A program made the position numbers and the translations under genes. A stretch of DNA of 64,000 nucleotides from Anadara kagoshimensis (Eukaryota > Mollusca > Bivalvia > Arcoida > Arcidae). The stretch covers positions 13,983,234-14,047,233 of the forward strand of contig CM037870.1 of assembly GCA_021292105.1 (NCBI GenBank). The letters are read 5' to 3'. Below the pieces are notes generated by a model. That model did not search any database. It saw only the letters and a list, made by a program, of their open reading frames with translations, and was not told the DNA's origin. Numbering within the stretch: the stretch's first letter is position 1; each line of letters starts with the position of its first letter. Below are positions 17,611 through 64,000 of this stretch, piece after piece.

Positions 17611-17624
17611 TGTTAACACGTTAT

Positions 17625-32900: not shown

Positions 32901-33291
32901 TAAGACAAAAAATTAACAACATCGTTGAATATTGTGAGAGGTTTGGTAAGTTTAAGGTTATGATCAAGTTGTGGTTGTGTATTTTGGGCTTGTCACAGTA
33001 CAGACATACTTTCTCGAAAGTTTAACATTGTGTTAACGGAAAGGATTCATATCTTAGAAAGTAATGATAAGACAAAAATTAACAATATCGTTGAATATTG
33101 TGAGAGGTTTGGTAAGTGTAAGGTTTGTGATGATGTTGTGTTTTGGTATTATTGCCGACCTGTCGGAAGTTTAACACTGAGCTAACGGAAGGGTGTCATA
33201 ACTCGGAAAGTTACAATAAGAGAATCAGGAATCAACTTTGCAGAATGTTGAGAATGATTTGGTTTGATGTTAATGATCATGTTGTGTTTGA

Positions 33292-33331: not shown

Positions 33332-36300
33332 ACTTTATTAGGCGTGTATCGATTTATTTTAATCTTTGCACTGCGGTGCAATATAAGCCAGATTACACCA
33401 GGCTATCCTGATGTCACCATGACTGACAGTGTGTTATATCCCTGTACTAGCCAACACTCCGGCACTGAGGTACTAGCTCACCGAGACAGGAGGTGAAGAG
33501 TTTAAAGTCTCACTGTTTCGTTATCCTGATACCAGGTGAATGAAAGGAATGAACTTGCTAAGGCATCAGTATTCCCCCGTCGGGTTTGAACTCGCAATCC
33601 TTGGATCTGGAGTCCGACCCTTTACCAATTGAGCTACATTGTACATGCTTCAATGCTCTTTTCATACAACTTTAACATGTTCTGTTTTCAGTCCGAGTTG
33701 TCTTGTAAAGATAAAATACCAGATACCTTGTATACAACGAGAGACAAGAATTCTATAAATGTGGTATTAAATAAAGATGTTGATCCAAGTGATGGGTATA
33801 ACTACAGAATTAAAATATCTCTATGGGGTTTGTATCATAGCATTATATAATTTTCACAAAAATTAAGAAACTCCATATTTCAGTTAGATTTCAATTCACA
33901 TGTACTGTATAGGCGATTCATTGGGTGCACACGCTATTTTTATGTAACACCTTTAGCAAATACGCTTCATACATTTGTATGTTTCTCAATGCATATACCT
34001 GACATGTGGTACTTTTTAATTGTCATGTGCTATGTTTGAATGTATTATTTCGACACCCCCCCCCCCAAAAAAAAAATAATAATCAAAATAGCACATGGCA
34101 TACCTATAAAGATATCGAATGAACTATTGATCAATAGGTAACACCAGCGAACCGAACAATTCGCTTGTTGATTAGCAATTAAAAATAAAAGTTCATTTGT
34201 ACAAAATTTTGACATGGAGTTATCTATCGTTGGCCACATTTTGATACCTTGCACTCCGCAACTTTACCTGAGAAACCAATAAAAACTATTCTGCCTTGAG
34301 AGTGTGTACTCTGTTGAGAATACAATGTACGAGGGGAAGTCAGAAAGTTCATAGAACAGCGTATTCACCCAAGCGAAACACATATTTTTTTTTACTTATT
34401 TAGACAACACAACATTCGGCCGTTTTAAACATATCAAGTGTATTTGTCACAACATATTTGTGTAATTCTCAAAAGCATTCAAAGTTGGTGACCATCAAGC
34501 AAAGTATATATAATATAATAATATTTATTAACGTCTCATCTTAAATACATCAATAAAACTTATATTAAAAACATTTATATTATATTATATTATTATATTT
34601 GTGTAATTCTCAAAAGCATTCAAAGTTGGTGACCATCAAGCAAAGATGGAAAATAAAAATGTTGAGTTTAGGACAGTAATAAAGTTCTTCACAGTAGAGG
34701 GATCAAATATCAAAGAAATTCACCGGCGAATGGCCGAGGTGTACGTTGACAGTGGTCCTGCTTATTCCACAGTGACAAAATGGTCAGCTGATCATGAATT
34801 TAAACATGGGCGCACACCTCTGAAGGATGACTCACGGTCAGGTCGGCCAGCTGATGCCATCACAAAGGAAATTGTAACGTGTGTGGCGACCCTCATCATG
34901 AATGATCGTCGTATGTGATTGTTATGGTATCAATTCTTAAAGTTTAGATTTCTTTAGCAATATAGAAGATAATTGCATGTTTGTCGAAAATTCCTCACAG
35001 TAGATCATATGTTTCATGACTGAAATCTCGTACAACCTCTGTTTCGAACATTTCAATCTAAATTCGTATCAATTTTTCGGTTGTGCTATTGAAATAAATT
35101 GTGGCATGGTGTGTCTCTTGGAATCTGTAAAAATGGTTATTTTTGCGTGATGGAAATTTTCCCAATTTCATGAATTGAAAAAAAAATCGCGAAAATAAAG
35201 GCAAGTCATGTTTCATATTATACGTGCTTCGAGAGTGTGCAAAACCTGAAAATAATATAAGCCCCTCAATTAGTTTTAAGAATACAATTTCCATTCGGGA
35301 AAATTTACACATCTAGACAACCATAAATTTTGTTTTATCATTTGTTTGTAGAAGGACCCGATAAAGGTGGACTGTCTTTTGCTGTAAAACTTGTCATCGG
35401 GATAGCTTGTGGAGTGTTTGTAATTATAATAGTGGTTCTTGTTATTAAAACAATACTGTACAAGAGAAGGGTTAAGAAAGAGGAAGAAGACGAAGAAGAT
35501 ATTCCAGAATCATTACCAATGAGACCATCAGCACCTGAACCTGACGCCATACATGGTAGGTTAATAAAAGTGAATAACGTGTACTTATTCATAAATAAAT
35601 GAATGAACGTTGTAAATACGTGTCAAGAACACCAAAGAACATGGACGATTGGTTGATTAATTGAATGAATGAATGAATGAATAATTGAATGAATGAATAA
35701 ACGAATGAATGAATGAACCAACGTACGGACGAATGAATGAGTTGAATAATGGTGTTTAACGTCCCATTCAAGGATATTTCACTTATACCGAGGCGTCTCC
35801 AGCTATAGGCGAAGATGCAGAAATTTTGCCTGTGCGTTGCGCTGATAGCATTATACAACAGGGTTCTTTATCCTGTTAAGCCTATCGTTTATTTTAAGTT
35901 CCCATCCGAAGAACAGCGACTTTCATTTTCGTAATGCCGAGTGCTTGGCGAAAGAACAGTCACTACCCACTTGGGTCAGACTCGGCGGGGGTTCGAACCC
36001 ATGACCTCCAACTTACGTATACGGAGCGAGCATGCTACCAACTTAGCTACCGCAGTGGTTAATGAATGGATGGATGAATAAATGAATGAATGAATTGATT
36101 TAGTTTTATGCCACAGTAAAGGATATTGCATTGATATCGAAGCGGTCAATTCATGGACGGTGAGGGAAACCGGAGTACACGGACAAATCTTCGACCGTCG
36201 GCAAACGAACTGGCATAATTTTTCCGAATTTGTCCGGGAGAGATTCGAAGCTACGCAGCTACAGGCATTGTGATACATTTTTTATGCGTTTATTTGACCA

Positions 36301-44224: not shown

Positions 44225-45240
44225 TCATTAATTGTTATTACGTCATTGAAATGAAGTGTTTTAAGTAAGAGGGTGTTGTCACAGAGCATGCCTGAAGAGA
44301 TAAATACCATCTACCTATTGTTGTACAATCATTTACTGCCTGAAAGATTTCTTGATCTTTTGAAGTGGATAAATTGTACAAATCAAGCATTTATATTGTA
44401 TCTTGTAATTCATATTCTTGCTTTCTTAAATATTTTAGATCGCATCCGTGCCCGAGTGATAGAATGCCTGCTTAGAGAGCGGAGGGTCGTACGCTAGAAT
44501 TTAGTCAAAGTAATATACATGTATAAGATAGAGTTGGGGTTGGTCCTTTCTCGGCTAACGCTGGGTATAGAGAAGGCATGATATAGACTGTTTCATCCAG
44601 TGTAACGTGACTAGTGGAGTGGTATTATTGTCTGCAACATACTTAATTAGAGAGCTGGGATCTAGTCACCTCAAGTGTGCTACTACTCGACAGAGCAAAA
44701 CGACGCTCCCAAAATCTCGCACACAAACAAACTTTATCTAAAATTGAATGAATTGTTATAGATGGTGCAATGTTTAATGTTATTGAATCGACAGCAGCAA
44801 AATCTCCTTAGAAAAGTCAAAATTTCTGCACCTTTCCTTTAAATTGGCGATGTCTCGATATAAGTGAAATATTTTTGTCTTGGATGTGTAACACCATTAT
44901 TCAACTATACGCAACTCCAGATGACATGAAACAGTCAAAATATTTTCAACAATCGCAATCTGAAGGACGCGGAGTAGTGTTTTACGTTCCAGTCCATGTA
45001 AATATCAAGGTGGCCAGATCTTGTATTGTGGATGAAATCAACGACTCCCGAAAAATACTACCTACCTTCGGGTAGCGAATTGACAAGACGTATTATAAGG
45101 TCGGTTCGATCCTAGGATTAATTAGTAAGACGACACTTAGACAATCATCCACCGAGTCACCCACTATTTGAAGTGCGACGTTATTTAATATGCACTTATT
45201 CCATGACGATTTAATTTATTGCGGTGATACATATATATAT
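44225..45240. other. Intergenic, SINE fragment, no gene supported
   Basis: A SINE-tail fragment lies at about 44,815-44,900 and a tRNA-like segment near 44,440-44,500. Frames at 44,273-44,497 and 44,875-45,075 overlap these repeats and have no splice or start support. Confidence 0.4.
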
Positions 45241-45247
45241 AACTTTT

Positions 45248-45414
45248 TTTATTAAAACAACAAGTCAGTTTTATTCATAAAATAAAAATTAACAAACAAA
45301 AAAGACCAATTATTTTAATTTAATTTTAAATTCTGAATAAATACTTTGTACAATAAACTTAAATAAACACAACATTATATACGGCTTCAATTCTTCATCT
45401 TCAAAACTAAAAAC
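45248..45414 (-). terminator. 3'-UTR exon and polyadenylation signals of the microexon gene
   Basis: An acceptor (TTTTTTACTTTCAG) at 45,415 starts a non-coding AT-rich exon with AATAAA at 45,270-45,275 and again at 45,248-45,253. It pairs with the donor (AGCAAG|GTAAAAACC) just after the stop codon at 46,280. Assignment is by position and splice fit. Confidence 0.55.
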
Positions 45415-45756
45415 CTGAAAGTAAAAAATGATAAGCCATTTAAAGTATTGCACTAAATTAACTGATTACTTTATCACAAATTCCATACAATAGCATTCTC
45501 GAATATATTTCTTAATAATCTGAAGTCTAACGTCTGAAAGCAGTTTTCTTGGATTTTTTTGTTCAAGATAATAAGCAGTTTTTAAATTTGCTTCTGGATT
45601 TCATAGACTGGAATAGATGTTTTGATTTTTGATAATTTCCCATGTTATGTTTCACCTTTTATTTCCATGCATAATCAGTTTAGTAGCTCACCTTATTCGT
45701 TTTTTCTAAAACTTTGGTGTTATAAAGCACAAGAAGCCATACCAAAGACGATAATT

Positions 45757-46222
45757 GTGCAATATAGACCTTTCGAAGTTTTATATTAAGCTAAAAATGT
45801 TGCTAAGTCAGAAACGCACGTTGACCCATCCTTAGCTACATATATATCTCTTAGTTTCAACTTGAAAGTGGGTAGTGATTGTTTTTTCGCCAACCACTCG
45901 GCATTACGAAATAATAGTCACATGGTTCTTTCGGACGGGAATTTTTAAAAAAAATAAACAAGGTACCCTGTCACGGTAGGCATGGCACGAAATATAACTC
46001 CATTATAATGTCATCAACATAAAATACAGACATTTACATGGCGATGTCTCGATAAAAGTGGCATATTCCTGACTTTGACGTTATTCACAATTTCTCAACT
46101 TAATTCAACTCTACGTTTCAGCACCTGCTGTCTATCCCGATGTAGTTTTCGCTATACATGGCCAACTCGATTGGCGAGCTTTCCCTTAGCTTAATGTTAA
46201 ACGTTCGACAAGTCTATATAGT
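45757..46222. mobile_element. SINE inside a family A MITE
   Basis: Family A ends (AATATAGACCTTTCGAAGTT and TAATGTTAAACGTTCGACAA) enclose a sense-oriented SINE fragment (about 45,865-46,115: AACTTGAAAGTGGGTAGTGA through CGATGTCTCGATAAAAGTGG), so the SINE landed in an older MITE. All of this lies in the last intron of the microexon gene. Confidence 0.65.
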
Positions 46223-46279
46223 CAAGTGCACAAAAGCTAAAAGGATTCAAATTATTCTAAATGGTTTTTACCTTGCTAA

Positions 46280-49200
46280 TTATATTTTCAATTCAGGAAT
46301 TGCCCAGATGCCGTCTGGTGAAAATTGATTGCTCCCTGTAAACAAAATTGAAATACATACATTTTAATAACCTCAACACGATACCATCAGACACCCTAGT
46401 TTTCTCCACTACTCCAGAACTGACCATCTTGATATAAAGTGAAGAATCTTGACTAAGACATAGAATACTATTAATCCAGAGATAACGCATCTAATTATTT
46501 ATTTTAACTCTATGCAGTTTTGAGTGTGAGTAAATATACAAGTGTGCATACCGAAGGTTGTCTTTGTAAATTAGGACTCTCAACAGTCAAAGTCTCGACA
46601 TTTGTGAGAATGTTGGCTGGGTAAAACACCATTTTTCATCTCCAACCCTTATTATGATCCAGTAGTAGAGATGTTTAGAGCATCATCTATCTGGTTTCAG
46701 TGTTTTCTCACTGCCTAAGAACGTATCAGACATACATAGGGATAAGCAGTACAAGGTCTGTTATCTTTTTTTCCAGGGTTTCTTCCACCAACTCTAAATT
46801 ACAATTGACTGCCTCGATAATATGCAAAAAAATCTTGACTGGAGCGTAAAACTCTATGACTTCATTTTCAACACCTACAGTTTCTCCATTTCGTTTGTCT
46901 TTTTGGAACTTTGGAACTGATAAGTCAAGTTAGACACGTGAACTTCCACCAGGTAAGCACCTCCTGTTAACTATCTACATCCGCCACGCGTGTATTTAAA
47001 ATTTTGTGAAAGGAACATTTAACTTTAAGACGTCAAGTATATCCAGTCAATCCTGGACACAGAGACATCAAACTTATAAACAATTATGTGATGACGGCCA
47101 TAAAATTTTTTTAGGGCCTTCATAAGCAATATCCCTGGATTAACAATTTATTTGCAAGCAGCCGGCTTCGTTGTACAATGTCACCGTAGTGGGAACAAAC
47201 TCCTCCATACCGTATTAATTGGGAAACAGATACACCATAAGCAGGACAAGCAGGCATATTGTTGCATATAAAAGGAGTGTTTCGTGGGCATCATAATTCA
47301 CGTTTAAGTCTAAATATGAAGCAGAAGTTGAGGAATGAGTCGTATCTTTTATTTCAAGCTCACTAGCATAGATGACATTGACATAGTGCCCAAATTTAGG
47401 ATTGTTAAGTGAAAGAAAGTCATCTGAGATATTCTATATGATAGTTAAATTCATTAGATTTCAAAATAATTGAATTTAGCATGGAATTATAAAATGAATG
47501 AACTGGAAGCTTATCGATATCATTTGAAGCTCGCATATATATATTTTAAGCAACATATGTTTCCTTGCTTGTTTAAGTATCTACGATGGCCATCAAAAGA
47601 CTTCTTCTAATTTTTAATTAACGTCTTATATTTCGGTCATATGTACATGGATGGATTAAAGTATATTTCATAACAGTTTTACAATACAGGGTTAACTTAC
47701 CAACAAACCCTCTTTTACCTACATATAGAAAAATTGAAGTTCATAAAACGTTTGGTAGCCAATAAATTAATAAAATATCTCAAGCATTGTGGGTGTATTG
47801 GACACTTTCATGTTGTTCATTTTCTTTTAATTAGATTAAAAATCTTATTATCGTCATCACAATATCGCTTATAAATACTAAGCCTCAGTGCTCAAATTTA
47901 CTATGCATATATATGACGCTAAACAAGTTCATGTTCTTTTCATTCTTTTGATTTAAACGTAGCGGGTGTAGATAGCTAGACAGGACGTTATCAGTAATCT
48001 TCTATAGCACCATTTTTTCTTTTTTCTTTGATGGTAGAAAATTAGTCGACAAGGTTTTTGCTTTCCATTTGGATTTGAAAATGAACCGGTATATGTATAA
48101 ACAAGATCTGGATGTGCCTAGCACATTTTACAATTCGTCATTGAAAACGGTTTAAAATACAAGGAGATTATACGTCGAAACACCTTGCTTACAAATTGTT
48201 GATGGTGTCTAGGTCTATGAAGGCATGAAAAAAGTTTTAAAGCTACAATCTTAATGTCTCTGCTTCCAAAATTATCCCTGACATATTAATTGTTTCACAG
48301 TTCAAAATTCCTTTCATTTTGATATCAAACGCGAAGGGTATAGCTAGCTAGACAATAAATGATAACCCGTACAGAGCACCCGGTCCGATCTCTAGTGAAA
48401 GTTCAAACATTTTACTAAATTGCCATTTTTTGCAGTATTTTGTTTTGACATTGTGAAATGAGTCTGAATAAGTATATATGTCGTTGTTTTGATAACATTT
48501 TACGATTTCCATATACTTACTTGGTTTTCCTCCTGATGTTTGCTTCCATACTGAAATAATAAAAAAATCAAACTTTTATGCAAATTTCTATTATTATATA
48601 CTGCTAGCACGGGCACTAGCACTCGGGATTCATATTTTACAAAAGGTGCGAATACTATTGAAATTGTCCCCACATTGGTAAGTAATTGCTTTCTTAATAG
48701 TTGCGTACGTTTCTTGAGTACCCAGTCTAACTTCACTGGTGGTAGGTCACGTGTTTAGCTTAATTTGCTCATTTCAAAGTATTCATTTTGCTTTGTGATT
48801 GTGATTTGGACATGAATTGTTTTTTTTATAGACTATATCAATCACATCAATAACGCGAGAATTTCGAAAAAAGTGCACATAAGAAACAACGTACATGAAG
48901 TTGGGTATAAATTTTGTAAACGAAACGGAAAAACTGAAGTTACTTGAATTTGTTTGAAAACTTGTGGTTTTTTTTTTTAAAAAAAACTGATGAGATAAAT
49001 ATTGCCTATAAGAAATATACAAATAATTAAACACTATTAACACTGAAGATGAATAGGGATCATGGTTGAATAGTGGTTTAGATGAAAGTCTTCGAACCAA
49101 ACAGACATCTTCTAAGTTTTCTAATATATAGTTTGTATACTGCAAGAAAGTGTCCTGGTATTATTAAAATATTTGTAAGTGTACCCAAGTACCAACCAGA

Positions 49201-52200
49201 TAATAAACATTTCTACAAATCTAAAGCGCCATATAAAAGTTTGTTTAGATTTACCTTTGTGATTAATGGAAAGAACCATATCGGACATAGCTAAAAATAA
49301 CCTGTATGTCGTAAATTGACATTAAACCAAAATCAATCATCTAATAAAGATAATCAAAAACAAACATACTGATCCATGTCTGAATCACAATCTAGAAGCA
49401 AAGTAAAAACTTTGGAATTTTGGAACTTCCAATAGAGAAGTGAGGGTAAGCTAGCTACACCCGCCACGTGTGTAATCAAAATTGTGTGAAAGGAACATGG
49501 AACTATGGGACGTCAAATATATCCAGGGCAATCCTGGACAAAGAGACATCAAACTTATCAACAATACTGTGATGACGGTAAAACCTTTTGTCTGAGGGCC
49601 TTGATATAGCCTAGGCTTGCAATATCCTTGAGTCAACAATTTATTTGCAGTAGATAACTAATACATACCCATTTTGATGTTTTTCTTCCAGTTTATTTTG
49701 TTATTGTCTCTTGGTCGCTGTTTTCGTTCTGGTCTTTTGGGTCTAGTTTGTTTTGTTGGTTTGCGGGGTCTTTTGTTACTTGGTCTCGTTTTTCTGGGTC
49801 TTGTAGGTTTTGATCTCTCTAAAATTAAAAGTGGATTTTTTTGTTTTTTATTAATAAATTAATTTAGAATGCAGCTTGATATATAGATATAAACAATATC
49901 CCAGCACTCTTGGTTGGTCGATCGAAAGCGCGCATTAGAGATACAGCACCTCTCACTGTTGAAATCCCACCAAGGCCACAGGGTAAAAAACTTTTTCAGT
50001 TCGCTTGCAGAGGGTCGCATATTTCCTTTTTTATTACCAGAAAATCAGGTTCGACGCAAGAAAAAAATGATTAGACAAAGTTTGAGTTCCATTCCGATAA
50101 AATTAATGTGTATGTTAGAATTTGATTTATTTGATATGACAAATTGGCGACTTAAGATTTTTAGATATTTCAATAAAAATATTAATGAAACGCAAAAATC
50201 CTAATCAAAGTTACATACATGCAATTTCTGTCCGTCAACTGATGTTGTACTCGATTACATAACAAAGAAGAAGATATACATACCTCTTACACACTTTCCA
50301 TTATCGTATCTAGTATACCCTGGTCTACAAATACATTGTTTTGTTTCTACGTCATCGCATACTTCATAACCATGATAATCACATTGATCTACAATAAAAA
50401 TGGTGTTAAATGGTTAGGTTTAGTACGTACTTAAGATCAGTGAAGATTTAATTCCTTTGCAGATGACTTCGTTGATACTAACTTATTTTCCCCAACAGAT
50501 GACTTTGCACACGCGTTGTACTTATGGTAATAGTTGACCTTTTTGTAAAATTTTATGTCTGATCTGGAGCCCAATTGCTAGTGTATTTTTTCATAGTCTA
50601 CAACTTTATCTCTACGACAAGCGGGGTCCTCGCTGGCCGAGTGGTATAAAGCACGTGTACTGACCACATACACTGCCACTCACGGCTTAGGTCTAAATTC
50701 CACTCAAGACATAAACTGGTGTTAAAGATTTTGTTAGAACACTTGTCCTGACGAAGAATATTGGTATAGTCCATCTAACATCCATGACAGCCCGACCCAA
50801 GTGAAAGTTTCATGGCTGTAAAATACAATTGAATAACTCCAATCAAATCGACTAGTACTGCGATCATGCTTCAGGAAAAAAGTTGAATTCGCAAGAAAAG
50901 AAGTAACATGTTACTACATTTGTTTTAATCCCTACCAAGCTCATAACTTACAGACACACTGTCCGGATTGATCTAATGCCTCGCATACTGGACATTGTTT
51001 TATTGGTTTTGGTTTCTGTTTCTTTGGTGGAGTTGCTTTGGGTTTTGATTTGGTTTCATAACATCTATAATCTTTTCTATTACAGTAAAAGTTGTCACCA
51101 CAATGCTCGTCTTCACCACATTCACATCTGTATTGGATACACCTTTTACCAGGGAAACAATGATCGTCACTGGTGCATTCTGGTATACACTGAGATTCTA
51201 TACATTTGTATCCTTTTGTACAGTGATAGTCATAATTACACTCTGTAAATACCACAGATCAATAAATAAATAAATACATAACATGAAATGGAATGATTGC
51301 GATCAAATTTCATTCAATCGTTTTGATTGAAATTTTTTTTGTGGTCAGACCTCTTGTGTTATTTTTGTATGATAAAATTGTTCTTGACAATTTGTTGTTA
51401 TGTATGACACATACAAACATTTACAATCCTATTAGTGATTTTGATAAGTGCTCGTTGGATTGTTTTTACTTTGGTAATCTCATATGATGACAATGTGCTA
51501 CTGTTTGTAATAAAATCAAACGCCATTATATTTTGCAAATGTTACATTTCATTTTTTGTACGTTTTAGCTGTCCGTACGTTACAACCAGTAAATATACGC
51601 CAATCATATTAAATTTAAAATTCCCAGGACACATTTTTTAATTTTCGCATCATTTTACTATGGTGCTTCTTTGAGGAATTACATTTATGTAAAATAACAA
51701 TATAACTGACTTACCTGCTTGGGCTGTTTGATATGGATCTAAAAGAAAGTAAATATATAGTTAAAAGCTGCAAATTCTGTCCGGATTTACTTAGAAAAAA
51801 AAATCAGTTTTTTTCATTCATTTTACCTTTCCAGTTGTTGCCCCTTCGTATATAAATTACTAAGGTAGCTGGGCGGTCTTATACGCAAACATCATTTTAC
51901 GGCTTAGAATAGCGTGTAGAATGAATGGCCAATTCGCGTGTTGAAAGTAAATATTTTACTATGCGTTATCCGGTTTTCTTCACCATCAAGTAACAGGCCG
52001 CTTGGATATTATTAAAAAACGAACATACAATCACAATCACAAAAGAAATCACAATGTCTAAAGTTACAAACGCAAACGTCAATTAGGAAAATCAAACAGT
52101 CTTGAGACAAAATTAAATTTATCATTGATGTACATTGGACAATTGATTCTTTCGTACAAATTGTGCACATGTCATAAATGACACTATGCTTCGAAATATA

Positions 52201-52545
52201 CATGCTATTCTTGCGTCGTGATTTTACTGTTTATCTTCACGAATCCAAATGTAGCTTTTATTAAACCAATGGCATCAACATAGCCGTCAAAAAGTTTTTT
52301 AAATGGATTGACGAATATTACAAATATTTGGTTGACTGAAAACAAGCTAATATATCCGTTCAATAGCTCTTTTTATTTATTGTAGTCACTCACTTTGTGG
52401 TAATTAATTATTTAATATATATTCAAAAATATGTTCATCTATTATTCTCTCTCTTACCTTGTGGAAGTAGGTTCTGGGTCTGAAAATAAAGACGACGTTT
52501 TAATATTTTTGTGTAGAATATAATACTGATATATAATATAGTGTA

Positions 52546-52593
<48 letters not shown>

Positions 52594-55500
52594 CATATAA
52601 AATATTCAAAAATATTGTTTTGGCTCTGTCATCAAGCAAAACTTAATAGGAAAGATTATTTGACAAAAATGTATATTTTTTTACTTTGCTCATAACATTG
52701 TAATGATGAAAGTAATAGCTGACATATTGAATGTTAGAAAGGTAACACAAATTTTGCTTTTATATACGTCATAGGTTTTTAAACACTTACATTGTACTGT
52801 TGGTTCTGGATCTGAAAAAAATAAAATATAAGTTTAATTATCTCCCTTAATATACAGATACCGGTTGCTGTCCAACTGATATAAAAAATTCTCTGGTCTT
52901 AAATAATGTATAAGCAGTGTATAGTGTGAAATGATAAATTCTATGCTGTATAAATTTTCGTTAGTTCCGAGGATAGTCTGATTTACATGTAAAGGAAATA
53001 ATAATTTTTAAACTTATCTTTAATGCAACACATTAAGTTATCTAAAAGACCTCAAAAAGAGTACAAGACAAAACATATATTTTACTTTGCACATAAAGTT
53101 TTGGTGGTACAAGTAATAGATTGACTACATGAACATTTTCAAATTTATTGTTTTGGATGTCATCAAGCAAAACTTAAAAAAGAGTATTACACAAAAATGT
53201 GAATATTTTTACCAATATTGTGATGATGAAAGCAAAGAGCTGATATCTTTTGTGTTGCAAATGTTACATAAATTTTGTTTTTATTTTTAAAACACTTACA
53301 TTGTACAGTTGGTTCTGGATCTGAAAAAAATAATAAGTTTATTTATCTCCCTTTATATATCATATCGGATTGCTGATAACCTGATACAATAATAATATCT
53401 TGTCTTTTGAAATTTATGCACAGTATAAAGTTTGGATAATTAGTTGCCATGCTGTCTAAAGTTTTGTTATTTTCTTGGATTTCCCGACACACGATTTACA
53501 TGTAAACGATATATCTTTTTTAAAATAATTATTAGACAAAATTTAATATTTTACTTTGCCCGTAAAATTATGATAATGAAAGTTATAGCTGGCATGTAGA
53601 TTGCCTACATGAACATGAAAATTCAATTTTAAGATAAAATATAAAATATTGAAAATTATTGTTTTGGCTTCGTCATCAAGAAAAACTTCATATACATTAT
53701 ATACGCTTTTAAATACTCACATTGCACAGTTGGTTCTGGATCTGAAAACATAAGAAGAATACGTTTATTTAAAAATAACGTATTGCTGACCAACTGATTT
53801 AAAACAATCCGTATGTATGCACAGTATATATGTACCCGAGTTGAATACATACGTATATGTAAGATAAACCAAAGATATAAATTCTTTATACCTTTTGGAT
53901 AACGTGGACAATCATACACGGCGAACAATAATGATACAGATGTAACAATACATGACTGATTTACATATCCTGGGTTTTAATTTATGATTGCAAATAGTAT
54001 TGCTATATTTGGCAAGGCTGCTTGTATAAATTAATCCCAATTTATGAATTTTAACGGCACGAAATCGAATTAAAGTTTTCTAAGGGGAGACAATGTTCAA
54101 ACTTTTGTAAATTTTTAAAAAAAAATAAATAAGACTGTTATTAAATACTTTGCGGGTATACCTAATAATGTAAACCAATGAAAGCCTTGCCATCTCCGAT
54201 GTTAATTTATTCAACCACTTTAGAATCATCAAAATAACCAACTGCATTTTAATGTACGAAACTGATGTAACATTGTTTGGGAACATTTATATCTATATTA
54301 TATTTTTATGTTATGGTACTTACATTGAGGTGGTTCCGTAGGAGGATCTGAAGCAAAAAGAAAAAAATATTAATTCCATACAACAATAATGCCGCATTAT
54401 AAAAATTCAATGACTGCATATTTTTTACTAGCAATCTATACATATAAATACAAAAAGGATAAAATGAATAGTAATCAATCAAAAACAAATATACTAATCC
54501 ATATCAGAATCACAATCCAGAGGCAAAGTAAAAACTTTGGAACTGACAAGTTAGGTGATACACGTGAACTTCCACCAGGGAAGTGAGGCCGGGTGCTCCT
54601 CCTGTTTAGCTAGCTACACCCGTCATGTGTGTAATCAAAATTGTGTGAAAGGAACATGGAACTAAGAGACGTCAAAAATATCCAGGGCAATCCTGGACAC
54701 AGAGACGTCAAACTTGTCAACAATATGGTGGCCATAAAACTTTTTGAGGGCCTTGATAAGCCAAGATAGAGTCAACAATCTATTTGCAAGCAGTCTACTT
54801 CGTTGTACAAAGTTCCCTTAGTGGGAACAAGCTCTACCATAGCAATTTTAAAAGATGCTCTGTGGCCTGTTTTGTCACCACATTTGATGTCAATCAAGTA
54901 CATTTTTCTTCCATGGAAATTTTACAATTTTTATATCTCATAGATTATTTGAAACCACTATTGAAGTATCATTTATTCTTAATGAGCAATGGTTTTATAA
55001 ACCAGGAGCTTCACAGTTCTATGGAAAGTAGGAAGATACATTATTTATTTCTAACTTAAATACTTACATCGGACGGTGTTTTCATGAGACTGTGGAGGAT
55101 CTGTAATGAAAGAGAATAAATAAAAAAAAAGAAACAATCTACCAATTGTGATACAAATAGACTGTCATATACTTATATTCTGCGTTTTAATTTCCACGCG
55201 TTTAAATTTGAATGTCTTCTTTTATATCAATTAAAAATAAACTCATGACAATACCGTACAGAAGTTGAAGCGCTTAACAATTTTATTATCGAGATATCCA
55301 TGTAGTTTGCATAATCAAATGTTTACCATATTCGGTATCTCTGCTGGTGGAAGGTTTTCCGAGGATATCACACATTCAGTAAGTAATAATTGTGTATTAT
55401 TGTCAGAAATACACTATAATATAAATTTGATGCTAGTTAAAAATTGAAATCCCTCATGCAAAGTATTCCCTAAGCTTAATTGGGTAAATATATTTCGGTC

Positions 55501-58500
55501 TTCTTGGGTATCTTTTCAACATTTGGTCTAAGTACTACTGATGAGAAATTGCATTTCGAAACGACCGTATAATGCTGTAAATTAAACTGGTATAAATGTA
55601 ATTAATGATCCATTATAAGTTCAAATACTTACAATCTATGGTAGGAGGCTCATGTGGATCTGAAGAAAAAATAACAATAATTTGTTGTTATAATGAGATA
55701 ATATATAAGTACAAAAATTAGTATTAAGAATATTGTATAAGTCCAACTAACATAAAATATATATTTCTTGGAGTGAAGTATGTTTGCTCCGTCGGTGACT
55801 CAATACATCATATGCAAAAGAATCTTCCTAAAGCATGACAAATAGCCATACAAAATAGACCTGTCGACAGTTTAACAATAAGCTAACGGGTAAGTGGCGA
55901 ATCGACAACCAATGTCACTCCTCTCGTTATTTATATGTCAAACGCTTATCAATATTTTTTTTAAAAGTACTTCAAAAAAAACCCAAAATTCCAAAAAACT
56001 AACTTAAAATCTTGAAAACTATATATTAAGTATACCTGAACTTCCGTCAGTGAAGTGAGGTCGGATGTTCCAGAAGGGTTATCACTTTTTGTCTAGCAAT
56101 CAGAGAGGTCTTGAAAGACAAAAGTTATTAAAACAGAAAGTGGCAAATTATATTTTTTTTTTCAAAAAGTAAAAAAGACTTACATTGAACAGCATTTGGT
56201 TCTGGATCTGAAATTAAAAAGTTTAAGTTTATGTATCGTTGCAATGATTATGTACAGGGTTGACATGAAACTGATTAAAATTTCTTTAGCTTTAATTATT
56301 TATAAAAAAGCAAGAAATTTTAAATTTGAGTTAACAGCAAAGCTTTACACTTTGACCAACTTGTTCACAGGATCCAAGTAATGTGGATAAAGCTAAAGCT
56401 TAGATTCAAGCCTACATGAATATAAATAATGGAAGCTATTTAGACATTAATTCGGCTTATTTAAAAAAATGTTGAATACTGCCCAATGTTCATGATTAGT
56501 AGAAAAAATGTTTAGAACACTAAAATTCAAATTGTTGTGAAATTCTAAAGTTTGTTTTAGTTGAACTATTCTAAAATATACGTTCTGTTGTGATGTATCC
56601 CATGATTTGATTGCCAAATGTATGAAGCTAGAGTCATTGAATATTTAATATTCAAAATTAAATAATCAAAATCATTTGTTTTTGGTGACTCCTTTTTAAG
56701 TATGTCACTTTGCTTGTCGAAGGTTGGATTTTATCGGTTGTCACGGTTATCAGAACCAACTCTGAACTGAAAGCCTCGATATAATTGGATTACACATGAC
56801 TGGGACTTGAAAGTACATCTTTAAAGCTCTACAAACAGGCGTTATGAATTCAACTTTTTTCGGTTACCATATTTTTCGGAAGGCTCATTGCAAATGCGGT
56901 ACTTACATTGTTGTTTCGTATGTTTTGGAGGTTCAGGATCTGAAATGATAAAAAACACGGCTTAATTTACCGTTTTTACAACAGATGCAGAAACATATAT
57001 AATAAATATAGATACTGCGAGTGTTATGTTTTGTTTTTCATTTTGTTTTCGGTGGCCGACTGTGGTAATGCTTCGGCTTATGAACCGCATTGGAACATCA
57101 TAGTTGAGAAAGTCTGTCGGTTCGCTTCCTAAAGTCAGTAGTTGTGTTGCTAAACTTAACTATTGCAAAGAACATGCCACGTGGATGCAAATATCTGTAC
57201 ACATAATGTTATGAATATTAAATGCCCATTAACATATAATAAAGTATAACTGTTTTAGCTGAAGAAAAATTGTTGTAATTTTTCACATTAGTAACAACCT
57301 CGATCTTTGAATTTACATCAATTTGAATATGTAAATACATGTAAATTATTGCATGACCTGTTGTAATTTTTCAGCACTGAACGAAGGTTTTTGGAATAAA
57401 ATTCCTCACCACTGTTGCTTGAACCAAAAATATGGAATTCCAAATAATTTTAAAAATGAGAAAATAAAGGACCAAAATTTGTTTACCAAATCCACATAAG
57501 GCACGTGGATAAGGCACATGATCAATTAAAAATATAGAATAAACTTTATGACGGAGATAATTTTGATTTACAATCTTGGTTAACGATACCCTGAATAAAA
57601 TATCATAAACGAAAATCAAATGAAAGTGTTCAATAAAGACATCTAGTATTTGATGTGTTGTACACCTGATGTCATTAAGTCAGTGGTACCATAGGTTTGT
57701 ATTGTTTGAATTACGAAACTGAAACGTATTACATGTATAATGACTTACATTCATGGGGATGTTTATGAGATACTGGAGGATCTGAAATAAAAATTAATTA
57801 TGAATAAAACATGTACAATTTGCACCTAATTTCCGAGTTTTCCGAAAAAAAACCTTAAAATAATAGGTAGTCTTCAATGAAAAATGAAATATGACAAGTT
57901 TTAATTTCATAATTTGATCCAAGCATTACTGATGAGGATATGTATTCCGAAACGGCCGTCTAGTGCGGTAAACTTAAGACGGTGAGAATATGTAATTTGA
58001 TTCACAGAATGATTTAAATATTATACATGCCCCGTTTCTCCATTCGTTAGACTGTTAGAAACATAGCTTTGTAATTGTTTCAATATCAAGATTGTCAATC
58101 AACGCAATAAAAACGAAATTACTAAAATATGTAGAAGAACAATAACTAGAGACACATTCCCACAAGAATAATCTTTTATATAGTTTGGTCTAGTTCAGCT
58201 AATTTCTAGTGCTTGATCTCTTGGGCTATAGGATGGGATCTATCGATAGGTGAAGAAAATGGAGATATAATCGGATATTAAAAGAAGTATTTTCTATCCT
58301 ATTTTAAAAATCAAGGTAAGAAAATTTATAAAAGATAATTTGATCGTACTTACATTCAGGTATCTTGTACTTTGGAGCTGAAAATGAAACATAAAATAAT
58401 GAGATGCTTGCATGTTTGTATCATAGAATTATCTATTTTGTTTTTGTGGATTGGATTTTTAAAAAAAATAGAATAGGCGCATGATAGTTTCATAGCATTA

Positions 58501-61500
58501 CAAATTAATGCATGACAATGTATATGTCGGTAAAACAAATAAATAAATAAATACAAAAATGAAAATAAATAAATAACACAGTTTTCACACAGTTAACATG
58601 TTACAGTTCCTTATTTGCAGTCAAACGTCATACATCTCTCTCTCTCTCACGTTATACTACTGCCAGTTTTTAATTTTATCTAAGATTTACACTCACCAAC
58701 TGGAATTTTATCTGAAAATAATAGCAGTTTTTAATTAAAATGGTGTGAGTGTATATATATAACAAATTGCATTATTAGTTTCCAATTAGATTTTTTCCCA
58801 ATAAAAAGGAAAGCATGTCTATATAGAATTTGTCCCATTGTTTTGAAAACAGTAATAATTTAAAAAAGAAAAGTAGAAATATATGATGTAAACTATTTCA
58901 AAGAGCTTTTAGATGAATTAATTACGCCCTAAATGCGAGGTAACAATGCTGCGTCAGTACAATTTATTGGTTGAATGGGGTTTTACGTCCAAGTAAAGTT
59001 AATTTATAACGGGGCATCGCCAGCTTTATTTTTTCGACTTGGAACTATTTATGGCGTGGTTTCTTTAGTGGTTCAGAACATCGGGTTTGAGATCTCCTAT
59101 TTTCTTTGCATATCGTTATAGTTAACATTATTCGAGTTCCGTCTAGCTTAGCTTTTGCATTTTATCGTATACAGAATTTTACGATAGCTATAAGGGAAAC
59201 AACTATTAATCATACCTGGTTTATATTCCTCCGGATCTGAAATAGAAAATTGAATATTAACAAATGAATACTTAAAGTCAAACATTAATTCATTGATAAA
59301 TATCCAATCTAGATACTTCATTTCTCTTTCCCGGGAAAGCACATCTTCAATTTATAGACATCAAAAGTATCTTTAAATACTTTAAATATCTTGCTTTTCA
59401 ATATTGTGGTCGGTGTATTAATTTCTCTATTGCAGCTATATTTTGTGCGGTTGCACATTTCTATATTTAATATCACTATTTATTGTTTGAAGGCTATATT
59501 CCCAAAAGTAGATGAGAATTTATTAAAATGTTGTTTAGTTGCATTTTAACAGAATAATATAAGTCATGTCAATATTGGGAAAACCACACAACAAGCATTA
59601 CAATGCACAACCAAGTGCATGATACAAGTAGTGATTTTAGCAATGTTTGAATGACAATATTTACAATATTTCTGGGTTTTTTTGCATTATATCCAATTTT
59701 ATTCAACTAGGATGGTGATGTTTGGTGTTTATTTATGCTACTTACTTTTTGGAGAACAAAGACCAGAACTGTTCCTTATCAGACCATATTCACATACACA
59801 TCCTACTTCAGGATTACAATATTCACCACCTTTTGTACAGGCAACTATAATAATAATAATAATAATAATAATATTAATAATAATAATTATAATAATAAAA
59901 TAATAAATAAGATAAATTACACAAGCATTTCAATATCAGTATATCAGAATTTAGAAGAATAGTAGTTTTATATTATTTAAGGACATGCTATACATAAACA
60001 TTTTGACGTGTTTTTCGTAAACTAGACATCAATTTTGTCTAGCATATAAAGTTATCAGATCTGGAATCTGGATATGTTTGTAAAATGTAACTAGTATTAT
60101 GCAAATGTAATCATGAAAGTGACATTAACGCTTTCATTATGCCAGTTAGGATTTATCGGTGGAAATAAAAATGAAATGTTTGTAAATACATGCAGCATTA
60201 TTTATGTTATCGACAGTTAATATATGATAAGGTTTTTTCTTAACTATGTTTTCCGATTAAATTGGTTTCGCTTTTAGTTTTAATGCTTGCACGGATAAGA
60301 ATTTAGGTACTTACGTTCGCAATATTTGCCATTGTAAATAGAGCATTTGTCACAAATGTTGTTATCCTTCCTAACGCACTTGTAGTACACACAGACATAT
60401 CCAGGTCCACAGTCAATGTTTTCTTTACAGTCGTAACTATTCTGTTTTACTGCGACACATTGATTTTTAACACACTGTTGTCCACTGGTACATATGCCTT
60501 GAAAATTAAAAATCAAATTTATATAATACATGTATATTTAACCACTGATCTGGCTAGCACAGCTAACATTATTCAATTTGCTTTGCAAGGCAAAAGAGTT
60601 TCTAGCACGGCAATCGACATTTCTAGTTATATCGTGTTTTTTAAATCCTGAAGAAGATTGAAACATTGCTGCTTCCAATAGGCATGTTCAGTCACAGCCA
60701 AAATGACGTAGTATAGGCACAAATAAGATGTAAGTAACGTCACTTATTGAATGTGATTATGGTCGTAAAACTATATTTGATTTTAGAACAAAAATATTAC
60801 GAATGTAATTTGATAATAACATTAAATAATTCAATACGCATATTTATTGTCAAAAAATACCCGCATCTTCAATGACAGAAAACGTATTAAAATGCATTAT
60901 TTCTTGAAGAATTTGATTCAGAAAAATAAATTACAGATCATTAAGTAGATTTTTCTTATTAAGGATAAGGTTGATAAATGTATCTAGATTTATGCGGAAA
61001 AGTATCTCGTACCTCAGGTTTTGTATTTTTTGCTCTCAATTGATGAACAATGTTTTGTAATGGTACGTGTTTTTTACGATTCAATTTTTTCGTTAAGATT
61101 ATACTTTTCACATAAATGTAAATTTGTTTTCGCATTTAAAACTGTATATAAAGAACAGTTAACTTTTGTACAATACCAAAAGATGTATGTAGATTGAACA
61201 CACTTTACGTTGTAAGAGTATAAAAACAGACGTATACCGTAAATTGGAAAACTAATATAAATTCACGAGTAACACGATTTGAAAGTAAAAAAGTCGTGAT
61301 CTCTTTTAGAATAATAACAAGCAAAATGATTAATTTCATATTACATAATTTGATACGTCGGAATGTCACGCAACGCAATTCGATAACCTTTCAATACGTA
61401 AACAAATGATTTAATTAATTTTGAGTTCGGTTGTATTGTAAACTAGAGAAACTGTGTCAATTGTGGGAGGGGCTTCTGAAGAGATTTGTCAATTCCGCTT

Positions 61501-62896
61501 CTGCGTACAACCAGACATGAAGATAAGAAACGACGCAGTTTGAAGACGCCTTTTTTAATGTGATTGAATAAGTGGTAATTTGAAGAATTGTAAATAAAAG
61601 GAATGCAATAACGAAATTTGTTCTCTAGGCTGGTATGAAGACAGGCAATAAACAATGTATACATGTATTACGTTTTGTAAAATGTGCAATTATTATGCAT
61701 ACAACATTACCGGTAACACATCTCATTTAAAAACACTTGTTTCATTACGATTAAATGCTTATAATACATGTATTACAGTAAAAAATCTTGATATGATAAC
61801 TCTGTGTAATTTTGCCATGTTTCTTTTCACAAAAATATTTTGAAGTACCAAAATCCATTTGTTCTGTGTATATTTATAATAACGTAGTGATTAATCCCCA
61901 GCCCAATTTCAAAATCTAAATTAACAAATATGCCGGCGATGAATCGAGGTTTTATTGTATATCTACATATATCATTCTCAAATACTTACTTTTGCACTTT
62001 CCCTTTCTGTTCCTTTCTTCGCATGGTCCGCATGATGGTGGTCTGCAAACATAATTATGGCAGGTCCATCCTGGGGTGGAGCAATCGGTTTGATCATAAC
62101 ATTCAACTATGAGAAAATAAATAAACTTTAAATGTTAAATAAAATGACAAAATATTTATTATGAAGAACATGGCCGTGAACCGATGTGATATTTAATCAA
62201 ATTTTGATAGTATAAATAAAGTGATTTTGAACAAAGCATAGGAGAAATACAAAGAATTTATCTATTTTATCAAAGTTTTAAACTACTTTGATTCAAGCTT
62301 TTGATAGTAAAAACAATGTGACTTTAATCAATGTATCAGAAAATTGTTGACTGAATAGTCTATTCGATCAAACAATTGAAGGATTTTGGTCCAAGTTTTT
62401 AAGTATCAACTTTAATGAAATTTTACAGAGAAAAATTAATGGAGTTCACTTTGATAAACAATGTTGATAATTTCAACAGTGACTTTTGTCAAATTATAAG
62501 AAAAATATTGGTATAATTGAAAATAATGGACTAAAACTTGTATCTTAATTTACTTTTGCGTTTTTACTATATAAAACTAACTTTGATAAAAGTTTTTGAT
62601 ATTGTTTACCTATCTTAGGACATGATTATCTATTTTTATGCATAAATTAGTATTCACACATGGAATCAACAAATTCCAACAAATGCAAATTTGTACAAAA
62701 ATATAAAACCGCAGACAAGAAATTTATGACGAGGCAACATATGTAGAATTTATAATAAGGAATCAACACAAAGAAACATATATAAAGTACAAAATTCAAC
62801 AGCAAAAAATGAATTTTTTATATAAACCTCGAATTATGAAAAGAAAAAAAAATTACGTAAATAGCATTCAGAAATCAGAATAAGTAAGCAGAGCAC

Positions 62897-62969
<73 letters not shown>

Positions 62970-63420
62970 GCAAATGTCAACGACAGAAAAAATAAAATGA
63001 TGAAATGTATTTAAAACTTAAGTAATAAATGTAATGAAAGGTTAGGTAAACAGAATTCAGAATTAGCAAGCATAGCATGAGAGCAAATAGAAAATATAAA
63101 CTGAGTCGTCGGCAGAAAAAAAACATAAAAAAAAGATGATATATCGCTTAAACCGGACTTTTTCAGGTTATACCGTGTTACTTATTACATCTAAGATATC
63201 TTTTTGCTGTAAATTTTGAGTAAAATGACATTAATGGATAAGGATTTATATTAAAAAGGATACTTTGTATCGGTTCATTACCACAGATATGTGTTGTTCT
63301 TTTTGATTTATTGTCGATGTGAGTGAGATACATCATGGGCGATTTTACGCTTTATAGAATTTAAATATATATATAAATTGCTAAAACTGTCACACCTACC
63401 TTCGAATACATTATTGGCGT
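46280..63420 (-). CDS. Cysteine-module secreted-type protein with microexon-encoded Tyr-Pro spacer, 5' end outside window
   Basis: Exons, transcription order: 63420-63400, 62106-61990, 60497-60315, 59844-59746, 59236-59216, 58711-58697, 58377-58354, 57781-57749, 56939-56907, 56207-56184, 55659-55633, 55100-55068, 54347-54324, 53741-53721, 53320-53300, 52811-52791, 51738-51715, 51242-50952, 50388-50284, 49818-49669, 48550-48521, 47718-47701, 46335-46272 (stop 46,280). All have GT-AG sites; each internal exon is a multiple of 3 and phase 1-1. About 463 residues are encoded here. Layout: Cys modules of C-5-C-5/6-C-4-C type (EB/Dickkopf-N-like) and EGF-like modules, a 107-residue Tyr-Pro/Glu-Pro spacer, three more Cys modules plus an EGF-like module, a basic tail, and a short C-terminus ending IPELKI. 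The signal peptide must lie beyond 64,000. An extracellular matrix, adhesive or binding role is inferred; the family is not identified. Confidence 0.7.
46905..47225 (+). mobile_element. Family B copy
   Basis: GAACTTCCACCAGGTAAGCA through ATCCCTGGATTAACAATTTA; a deletion between CCACCAGG and GTAAGCACC shortens the first half. In an intron of the microexon gene. Confidence 0.65.
47701..48550 (-). CDS. Two small linker exons between basic tail and C-terminus
   Basis: Exon 48550-48521 (30 nt) and exon 47718-47701 (18 nt) are both phase 1-1 with consensus sites (TTATTTCAG|TATGG...CCAA|GTAAGTAT and CTATATGTAG|GTAAAAG...GTTG|GTAAGTT). They add WKQTSGGKP and KRGFV, keeping the Lys/Gly character of the tail. 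Either could be alternative, because the frame is intact without them. The 18-nt exon is the less certain. Confidence 0.5.
49360..49650 (+). mobile_element. Family B copy
   Basis: AATCACAATCTAGAAGCAAA through TTGCAATATCCTTGAGTCAA, with a deletion of the GGGTGCTCC block. It ends about 10 bp before the donor side of the basic-tail exon. Confidence 0.65.
49669..49818 (-). CDS. Exon encoding a Lys/Arg/Pro-rich tail
   Basis: A 150-nt phase 1-1 exon. About half its 50 codons are Lys or Arg, and the rest are mainly Pro, Thr, Asn and Gln, in motifs such as RSKPTRPRKTRPSNKRPRK. It has no cysteine. If the donor at 49,668 (ATGG|GTATGT) is not used, translation ends at TAG 49,658 after GMY. Such tails bind acidic polymers, minerals or nucleic acids in known proteins; here this is only an inference. 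Confidence 0.65.
50284..50388 (-). CDS. EGF-like module exon
   Basis: A 105-nt phase 1-1 exon with five cysteines (QCDYHGYEVC, QCICRPGY, GKC). The C-x-C followed by RPGY and a terminal cysteine is the classic second half of an EGF-like repeat. The sixth cysteine may come from the neighbouring exon. A second possible donor (TGT|GTAAGAG) lies just inside but would break the phase. Confidence 0.65.
50952..51242 (-). CDS. Large cysteine-module exon (three C-x5-C modules, Lys-Pro linker, CxxC)
   Basis: A 291-nt phase 1-1 exon. Three tandem modules: ECNYDYHCTKGYKCIESQC, ECTSDDHCFPGKRCIQYRC, ECGEDEHCGDNFYC plus a last Cys. Spacing is C-5-C-5-C-4/6-C, resembling EB or Dickkopf-N type repeats. A Lys/Pro linker (KPKATPPKKQKPKP) follows, then CPVCEALDQSGQC. 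The same CxxC...G-x-C signature ends exons 62106-61990 and 60497-60315. Without splicing the frame runs to a stop at 50,941, inside the intron. Confidence 0.75.
51715..54347 (-). CDS. C-terminal half of the microexon spacer (YPPTEPPQ, YPEPTVQ x3, YPYQTAQA)
   Basis: Microexons 54347-54324 (24 nt), 53741-53721, 53320-53300, 52811-52791 (21 nt each) and 51738-51715 (24 nt), all phase 1-1 with CAG or TAG acceptors and GTAAG or GTGAG donors. The three 21-nt exons encode the same heptapeptide YPEPTVQ, where Tyr is split T|AT across each intron. Flanking intron DNA of the three is also similar (ATCTGAAAAAAATAA, TTATCTCCCTT), showing tandem duplication of about 0.4-0.5 kb units. A further 22-nt microexon-like block at 52479-52458 is excluded because it shifts the frame. 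Confidence 0.7.
52548..52590. repeat. (TA)n microsatellite
   Basis: TA run of about 43 bp in the intron next to the frame-breaking microexon. Confidence 0.95.
54483..54845 (+). mobile_element. Long family B copy
   Basis: Contains nearly every block of the family in order, from AGAATCACAATCCAGAGGCA through GGGAACAAGCTCTACCATAG. In an intron of the microexon gene, antisense to it. Confidence 0.75.
55068..59236 (-). CDS. N-terminal half of the microexon spacer (eight microexons)
   Basis: 59236-59216 (21 nt), 58711-58697 (15), 58377-58354 (24), 57781-57749 (33), 56939-56907 (33), 56207-56184 (24), 55659-55633 (27), 55100-55068 (33). Joined peptides: NPEEYKP, DKIPV, APKYKIPE, YPPVSHKHPHE, YPEPPKHTKQQ, YPEPNAVQ, YPHEPPTID, YPPQSHENTVR. 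From the fourth on, each begins with Tyr encoded across the junction (T|AT) followed by Pro. Acceptors have the form TTTCAG|ATCC, with one TTACAG. Introns are 0.3-0.9 kb. The chain is Pro, Tyr, His and Glu rich, probably extended and unstructured. Confidence 0.7.
55527..55580 (-). repeat. Dispersed ~60-bp hairpin motif
   Basis: GTACTACTGATGAGAAATTG then CATTTCGAAACGACCGTATA, a reverse-oriented, diverged copy of the motif at 31,122. In an intron of the microexon gene. Confidence 0.5.
57371..57425 (+). repeat. Dispersed ~60-bp hairpin motif
   Basis: TTCAGCACTGAACGAAGG then ATAAAATTCCTCACCACTGT; diverged copy of the motif at 31,122. Confidence 0.5.
57915..57975 (-). repeat. Dispersed ~60-bp hairpin motif
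   Basis: CAAGCATTACTGATGAGGAT then CCGAAACGGCCGTCTAGTGC; reverse-oriented copy close to the 31,122 version, about 500 bp from another copy. Confidence 0.65.
59746..59844 (-). CDS. EGF-like cysteine exon
   Basis: A 99-nt phase 1-1 exon with five cysteines: ACTKGGEYC, GCVCEYGL, GLC. The CxC plus GxC ending is EGF-like. It joins exon 60497-60315 through a split Leu codon and leads into the spacer. Its acceptor directly abuts an (AAT)n run at 59,848-59,896. Confidence 0.65.
59848..59896. repeat. (AAT)n microsatellite at a splice acceptor
   Basis: An imperfect AAT run starting 4 bp upstream of the exon at 59,844. On the coding strand it reads as (ATT)n and forms the pyrimidine-poor tract before ATTATAG. 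Confidence 0.9.
60315..60497 (-). CDS. Cysteine-module exon
   Basis: A 183-nt phase 1-1 exon. It starts in mid-module (ICTSGQQCVKNQC), then has a full DCKENIDCGPGYVCVYYKC module (C-5-C-5-C-4-C), then ICDKCSIYNGKYC with the CxxC...C signature. The half-module at its start needs a cysteine from an upstream exon, either 62106-61990 or one I have missed in the 1.5-kb intron. Confidence 0.7.
60500..61980. other. Large intron, no exon recognised
   Basis: AT-rich, without repeats of the families listed. I searched the minus strand for phase 1-1 cysteine exons and found none with both sites. Confidence 0.4.
61990..62106 (-). CDS. Cysteine-module exon (ECYDQTDC... CGPCEERNRKGKC)
   Basis: A 117-nt phase 1-1 exon: one module spaced C-5-C-6-C-4-C followed by CGPCEERNRKGKC. 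The acceptor is TTCTCATAG and the donor AAAA|GTAAGTATT. A broken inverted homologue is at 42,986-43,089. Confidence 0.75.
62900..62965. repeat. (TA)n microsatellite
   Basis: TA run of about 65 bp in the intron between the 21-nt exon at 63,400 and the cysteine exon at 62,106. Confidence 0.95.
63400..63420 (-). CDS. 21-nt microexon, first exon of the gene inside the window
   Basis: TTTATTTCAG|AC...GAAG|GTAGGTGTG, phase 1-1, encoding ANNVFE plus split codons. It fits the gene's microexon style but lacks the Tyr-Pro motif. It shows the gene continues upstream of 63.4 kb, where the signal peptide should be. Confidence 0.5.
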
Positions 63421-63444
63421 CTGAAATAAAAACGAAGACAGTAA

Positions 63445-63783
63445 GTGAGTGAGTAATAGTGTTTAACGTCCCAGTCAAGAATATTTCACTTATATCGAGA
63501 CGTCGCCAGCTATAGGTGAAGGTGCAGAAATTTTGCTTGTGCGTTGCGCTGATGGCATTATACAGAAGAGTTCTTTAGCGTGCCAAGCCCACCGTGACAC
63601 GGGACCTTGTTTATTTTAAGTTCCCATCTGAAAGAACCGTGACTTTCATTTTCGAAATGCCAAGTGCTTGGCGAAAGAACAGTCACTACCCACTTTCAAG
63701 TCTTGGGTCAGATCCGGCCGGGGATCGAACCCACGGCCTCCCACTTACGAAGCGAGCACTCTACCAACTGAGCTACCGCAGTA
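63445..63783 (-). mobile_element. tRNA-derived SINE, near full length
   Basis: Head complement ACTCTACCAACTGAGCTACC at the right and body running left to GTGAGTGAGTAATAGTG. It lies in the intron upstream of the 63,400 microexon. Confidence 0.8.
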
Positions 63784-64000
63784 AAATAAGAGAGATAGTA
63801 ATGTAAAAACAACAATAATACAATGGATATAATGTAAAACGTAAAATAAAACAAACTATCAATGCATTACCACAGAAACATACAATGATGTATAATCAAA
63901 AATCAAAAACACTCAATAATTAACTGCAATAAAACTATTACTTTATTTTGTAGACTGTTTCACAATCCATGTAAAAAAATCATGTAATAAAAGTTATAAT

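Follow-up and report, generated by a model that had tools for sequence, protein, structure and literature searches.

The 64,000-nucleotide window analysed here, from contig CM037870.1 of the bivalve Anadara kagoshimensis, carries on its minus strand a series of thirteen very short exons (m1 to m13) that encode a Pro- and Tyr-rich spacer between two cysteine-rich blocks. It probably holds a real arcid bivalve gene for a secreted-type protein, in which the tether is built from microexon cassettes and has grown by their duplication. What is established directly is that the DNA has this gene structure, that the structure is non-random, that parts of it have homologues and that the flanks of units m10-m12 are duplicated. 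All positions refer to the window, counted from its first letter.

The 13 blocks had been proposed in a first-pass annotation, and all were found on the minus strand between 59,236 and 51,715. They are 15-33 nucleotides (nt) long, every length is divisible by three and each block is open in phase 1-1; together they make 321 nt or 107 codons. Consensus splice sites had also been described, and an AG after a T-rich tract indeed precedes every one of the 13 units, while the donors read GTAAGT in ten of them, GTGAGT in m2 and m10 and GTATGA in m1. From m1 to m13 the units measure 21, 15, 24, 33, 33, 24, 27, 33, 24, 21, 21, 21 and 24 nt, corresponding to 7, 5, 8, 11, 11, 8, 9, 11, 8, 7, 7, 7 and 8 residues when the split first residue is counted, and neighbouring units are separated by 319 to 1052 nt (m12x skipped). 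The name Tyr-Pro spacer suits the ten units m4-m13, which begin with Tyr-Pro, but not m1 (Asn-Pro), m2 (Asp-Lys) or m3 (Ala-Pro). The units had further been called consecutive; the 13 do follow each other in order, but a 14th unit-like exon, m12x, lies between m12 and m13 and breaks the frame. The units are as follows, with the split first residue in brackets.

59216..59236, minus strand: m1, 21-nt microexon, (N)PEEYKP
58697..58711, minus strand: m2, 15-nt microexon, (D)KIPV
58354..58377, minus strand: m3, 24-nt microexon, (A)PKYKIPE
57749..57781, minus strand: m4, 33-nt microexon, (Y)PPVSHKHPHE
56907..56939, minus strand: m5, 33-nt microexon, (Y)PEPPKHTKQQ
56184..56207, minus strand: m6, 24-nt microexon, (Y)PEPNAVQ; similar to m10-m12 in flank plus exon
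55633..55659, minus strand: m7, 27-nt microexon, (Y)PHEPPTID
55068..55100, minus strand: m8, 33-nt microexon, (Y)PPQSHENTVR
54324..54347, minus strand: m9, 24-nt microexon, (Y)PPTEPPQ
53721..53741, minus strand: m10, 21-nt microexon, (Y)PEPTVQ
53300..53320, minus strand: m11, 21-nt microexon, (Y)PEPTVQ; intron flanks duplicated with m12
52791..52811, minus strand: m12, 21-nt microexon, (Y)PEPTVQ
52458..52479, minus strand: m12x, 14th unit-like exon, 22 nt, PEPTST, frame-breaking
51715..51738, minus strand: m13, 24-nt microexon, (Y)PYQTAQA, ending in G; adapter joining the array to d1

The first-pass annotation placed the array correctly, but the gene reaches past the limits given there on both sides. 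In the window 23 coding exons were recognised; the first 22 have lengths divisible by three and phase 1-1, and the final one closes with TAA. Microexons account for 16 of the 23 (u1, m1-m13, d4 and d5; m12x is not counted as an exon and d6 is not micro) and for about 28% of the coding sequence recognised (390 of 1391 nt). Three of them, u1, d4 and d5, thus lie outside the array. The least certain exon is u1, which has its splice sites and phase as sole support and lies outside the part covered by homologues. The exons on either side of the array are listed below.

63400..63420, minus strand: u1, 21-nt microexon, ANNVFE, phase 1-1; first recognised exon, splice scores 8.6/10.4
61990..62106, minus strand: u2, cysteine exon, 117 nt, phase 1-1
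60315..60497, minus strand: u3, cysteine exon, 183 nt, phase 1-1; weak DUF7107/Dickkopf_N resemblance, below the Pfam cut-off
59746..59844, minus strand: u4, cysteine exon, 99 nt, phase 1-1; closes the N-terminal cysteine block
50952..51242, minus strand: d1, cysteine exon, 291 nt; opens the C-terminal cysteine block
50284..50388, minus strand: d2, cysteine exon, 105 nt
49669..49818, minus strand: d3, Arg/Lys/Pro-rich tail exon, 150 nt
48521..48550, minus strand: d4, 30-nt microexon, (V)WKQTSGGKP
47701..47718, minus strand: d5, 18-nt microexon, (S)KRGFV
46280..46335, minus strand: d6, last coding part, ending in TAA

The non-randomness of the array was assessed by chaining open microexons with lengths divisible by three. 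Splice sites were scored with a generic metazoan matrix of textbook-type values; the thresholds were fixed by the weakest members of the array and were identical for the controls. The minus strand of region 51242-59746 gave a chain of 13, whereas 300 dinucleotide shuffles averaged 0.33 and never exceeded 3, and the opposite strand of the same region gave a chain of 1. When 14 successive stretches of 8.5 kb (seven per strand) were treated in the same way, the two overlapping the array on the minus strand gave chains of 8 and 8 and the other 12 gave 0-2.

Scores in the array span 5.5-10.9 for acceptors and 5.3-13.0 for donors. The means for the 13 units, 7.9 and 8.0 respectively, compare with 5.2 and 7.2 for the six larger exons u2-u4 and d1-d3, a small sample. 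Splice sites of this strength favour routine inclusion of the microexons. A laxer scan of the minus strand from 45000 to 64000 returned 24 candidate rows outside the known exons, three of them open and divisible by three. These three sit in tRNA- or transposon-like sequence, as we read them, and were rejected as further missed units. A simple tandem-repeat exon was rejected as well: Tandem Repeats Finder reported no array at the units, which are spaced as given above.

The joins between exons follow a simple rule. From m3 to m13 every intron splits one Tyr codon as T/AT, and any join within m3-m13 gives Tyr. The base at donor position -1 is accordingly T in 10 of the 13 units (m3-m12), being the first base of the split codon; G is usual at this position, so that the coding requirement apparently takes precedence over the splice consensus. 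Joins are open among all 13 units, from u4 to any unit and from u4 to d1. Among all forward joins 21 create a stop, ten from m3-m12 to d1, ten from m3-m12 to d3 and one from d1 to d3, because a final T in m3-m12 and d1 meets an initial AG in d1 and d3 (T/AG). Since m13 ends in G and a T/AG stop arises otherwise, no array that includes any of m3-m12 can do without m13. The proposal that every unit can be skipped in frame is therefore right as far as lengths go and for 12 units, but not for m13, without which m3-m12 join d1 as TAG.

Unit m12x has an acceptor score of 8.9 and a donor score of 10.4 and resembles the PEPTVQ units. Decay of a former unit, an error in the assembly or a switch function could each account for it.

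Relatives of the gene were sought with the joined protein in a collection of some 5.8 billion proteins. At an E limit of 10, two of the 862 candidates proved to be relatives, both from Tegillarca granosa (Arcidae): KUTeg_002639 (P0001, E 3.5e-55) and KUTeg_002638 (P0002, E 1.0e-46). An alignment query gave the identical two proteins among 1157 candidates, and the C-terminal block alone gave one candidate, which was not significant. In a viral-contig collection no DNA relatives were confirmed.

Exon d1 is 72% identical to P0001 and 73% identical to P0002 over 97 residues, and the start of u4 matches both proteins at 11 of 14 residues. Directly before the conserved cysteine block P0001 carries eight Pro-rich units, seven of 11 residues and one of 10 (NPPEQPQHTDR, YPPETPQHTDR, YPPEIPPHADR, YPPELPKRTDR, YPPERPQHTDR, YPPEPTPPANQ, YPPEPTPPADR and YPPPAKPTKP). 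The number and sequence of the units differ between this spacer and the one in the window; the Tyr-Pro start is common to both. The units of Tegillarca are likely to lie in separate microexons as well, because an apparent frame change in P0001 falls on a unit boundary.

P0002 is annotated with ILLN-type repeats where P0001 has YPPE. In a codon-choice test, where codons were picked to favour agreement and shuffles were given equal freedom, P0002 shifted by two bases agreed with the P0001 units in 74 of 77 residues (500 P0002 shuffles: mean 18.6, maximum 30), and the other offset gave 13 of 77 (shuffled maximum 20). From the out-of-frame part of P0001, d2 was recovered at 30 of 34 residues (shuffled maximum 12 in 300 shuffles) and d4 at 9 of 10 (shuffled maximum 7). 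It follows that the phase-1 reading in the window is the conserved one and that the microexon d4 is conserved. The expectation that such genes are mis-annotated was thus borne out, with both public Tegillarca models out of frame over conserved exons.

The out-of-frame parts are the spacer in P0002 and the d2 and d4 parts in P0001, the letters of the latter being near-identical in P0002. The spacer repeat of Tegillarca is open in two frames. The d1 acceptor in the window (51235-51250, minus strand) is a tandem site, CAGAG, and the P0002 model fits, as we read it, the site two bases downstream.

The flanks of the units bear on the origin of the array. Between m11 and m12 they align over 425 columns at 72% (E 3e-57), and m10, m11, m12 and m6 are linked by shorter flank matches, which indicates that some of the units were duplicated as exon plus intron. 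The exons m10, m11 and m12 all encode YPEPTVQ, with two base differences among them, both synonymous. For m1-m5, m7-m9 and m13 a common origin is suggested by exon similarity. The visible variation in the spacer is evolutionary, between genes. A transposon-like element in the m8-m9 intron (54477-54841) recurs at 75-77% in the d3-d4 (49352-49649) and d5-d6 (46907-47209) introns.

With 27% Pro, 12% Tyr and neither Cys nor Gly, the composition of the spacer suggests an extended, flexible tether. The product is probably a secreted protein with two cysteine-rich blocks, the tether and a basic tail, a design that fits a secreted matrix, adhesive or defence role. At their ends the blocks are alike in cysteine spacing, which is 2,7,3,6,5,1,11 in the N-terminal block and 2,8,3,7,7,1,11 in the C-terminal block, and the similarity between u4 and d2 alone was reached by 15 of 1000 full shuffles and by 35 of 1000 with cysteines fixed. 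Membership in the Dickkopf family did not emerge, with Dickkopf_N scoring 19 bits for the joined protein and 21 for u3 alone against a Pfam cut-off of 25, and the DUF7107 match was likewise below the Pfam threshold. A sequence search of the PDB returned no matches up to E 1.

These observations can be joined into one scheme. A tether between two cysteine-rich blocks would be assembled from microexon cassettes, and the array would have grown by tandem duplication of intron-exon units, with turnover between genes and species. Cassettes of m3-m13 could be gained or lost at the split Tyr codon while the frame and the Tyr-Pro start of the next unit are kept, and m13, the invariable G-ending cassette that closes the array, would adapt it to the next exon. 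The gene is likely to be expressed, and most units would probably be spliced in routinely, exon skipping being a possible second layer.

Several results weigh against this scheme. Including m12x brings in a stop, 10 codons further on when m13 is also used and two codons further on when it is not. The 64-kb window showed neither a start codon nor a signal-peptide exon, and tblastn of both Tegillarca proteins gave no clear counterpart of their N-termini there; the 5' end of the gene is probably located beyond the window. The relatives are limited to one other species, two further searches adding none, and the separate microexons proposed for Tegillarca are deduced from protein sequence. As units, m1-m5, m7-m9 and m13 have no flank match at E 1e-3. 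A comparison of exon and flank divergence for m10-m12 gave P 0.007-0.07 and is not relied on, the aligner having given 72% mean identity for random pairs. The similarity between the N- and C-terminal blocks is weak and was reached by 4 of 1000 full and 31 of 1000 cysteine-fixed shuffles. An AlphaFold2 model of d1 with both Tegillarca proteins had low confidence, with a mean predicted local distance difference test (pLDDT) value of 62.7 and a predicted template modelling (pTM) score of 0.31.

The first-pass annotation proposed a regulated microexon gene in which the units are alternative cassettes and exon skipping yields many isoforms with different spacer lengths. Such a gene would explain why all units are divisible by three and in phase 1-1 and why they can be joined to one another and to u4 without a stop; exon skipping is reported for the flatworm genes discussed below, and m12x could act as a switch. 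The same symmetry is, however, also expected from tandem duplication of one cassette without any regulation, the splice sites are strong and one unit cannot be skipped alone. Regulated skipping seems unlikely as the explanation of the array.

Considerably less probable is a decaying or pseudogenic locus, where a once active array is now unexpressed or mis-spliced. The frame-breaking m12x with its strong sites would then be a sign of decay, and the start exon was not found in the window, but 22 exons remain open and divisible by three, the splice sites are intact, the final stop is proper and d1, d2 and d4 are conserved relative to Tegillarca. AT-rich DNA is rich in T-rich AG and GT sites and single candidates occur all over the window, so that splice-like sites in AT-rich introns might have been taken for exons. 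This chance origin is strongly disfavoured by the shuffle test, where no control came near a chain of 13, and by the Tyr-Pro units that also stand before the homologous block in Tegillarca; it was rejected as extremely improbable. A real protein gene with a duplicating array of cassettes is the preferred reading.

A published rule for micro-exon genes (MEGs) calls for exons shorter than 70 nt and divisible by three, at least seven exons, at least half of them micro, and a run of at least four (PMC7653826). The bivalve gene falls within this rule with 23 exons, 16 of them micro, and a run of 13 (12 if m12x is used), a tally that covers the exons recognised in the window, the upstream part of the gene probably lying outside. 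MEGs appear to be restricted to platyhelminths, and microexons make up most of their coding region (PMC4350168); at about 28% the present gene is unlike the schistosome type in this respect. The schistosome type further carries an N-terminal signal peptide, and none was seen in the window, which lacks a recognised start exon. Like the present gene, the MEGs of Schistosoma and tapeworms have very short symmetric exons in runs and longer introns and are hard to annotate, and skipping of such exons has been reported for them (PMC7653826, PMC4350168, PMC4015677). The gene belongs to a bivalve and not to a flatworm, the database relatives found are those from Tegillarca granosa alone, and homology to the MEG class is not claimed. 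In the open-access literature no report of a micro-exon gene from a mollusc or bivalve was found.

By analogy, the nearest design is that of SmVAL6 in Schistosoma mansoni, where ordinary exons for conserved motifs are combined with an array of small exons (PMC4015677). That gene differs in being venom-allergen-like, in having the small exons after the large ones instead of between cysteine blocks and in having demonstrated isoforms (PMC4015677). The 10-3 antigen (MEG-4) of Schistosoma has tandem exons that each code for one protein repeat (PMC4015677), although its units are of 81 bases and it is a flatworm gene. The nearest functional parallel, again by analogy, is the PEVK region of titin, a Pro-rich tether encoded by numerous short, repetitive exons, of which 113 are annotated in human, with turnover by duplication and poor annotation (PMC6469411). 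Titin is a giant muscle protein, and the likeness is architectural. The mini-exons of troponin T and the muscle-specific exons of NCAM form tandem arrays in vertebrates, with fewer units than the bivalve gene. They too are short cassette exons that add small peptide stretches, but their regulation is demonstrated. Microexons in troponin T and Ncam are on record (PMC8042270).

A bolder possibility is that a free-living mollusc evolved the micro-exon-gene design on its own. The tether would then be combinatorial, with 12 droppable cassettes (ten of them ending in the T of T/AT), a G-ending adapter, a T/AG stop that rejects unclosed arrays and m12x as an on/off switch for the second cysteine block. 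This is doubtful, and a shade less probable than the regulated gene considered above.

Elsewhere in the window a reverse-transcriptase fragment was found at 16786-17628 (minus strand; DUF6451 E 4.3e-13, RVT_1 sub-threshold) and a Mariner/Mos1-type transposase fragment at 34607-34915 (plus strand; HTH_48 sub-threshold). At 12765-13109 (minus strand) lies a small open frame whose start resembles a signal peptide and leads into a short stretch that is basic and rich in cysteine. Two tandem-repeat arrays, at 31797-33125 and 5115-5466, have periods near 163 and 122 bases, respectively. The open frame at 35327-35599 (plus strand) encodes a hydrophobic, membrane-spanning-like stretch and an acidic tail, with all Pfam matches sub-threshold, and is perhaps an exon of a receptor-like gene.

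The architectural principle of the array is known, and the lineage in which it occurs here is unexpected. Both public models of this family from Tegillarca serve as a practical warning for annotation, and the split-codon rule together with the stop-forming join predicts which isoforms can exist. If the gene is transcribed as predicted, the micro-exon-gene layout, described in PMC4350168 as apparently flatworm-restricted, would exist in a bivalve, and the gene would clearly illustrate how a protein tether can grow when whole microexon cassettes are copied around one split codon.

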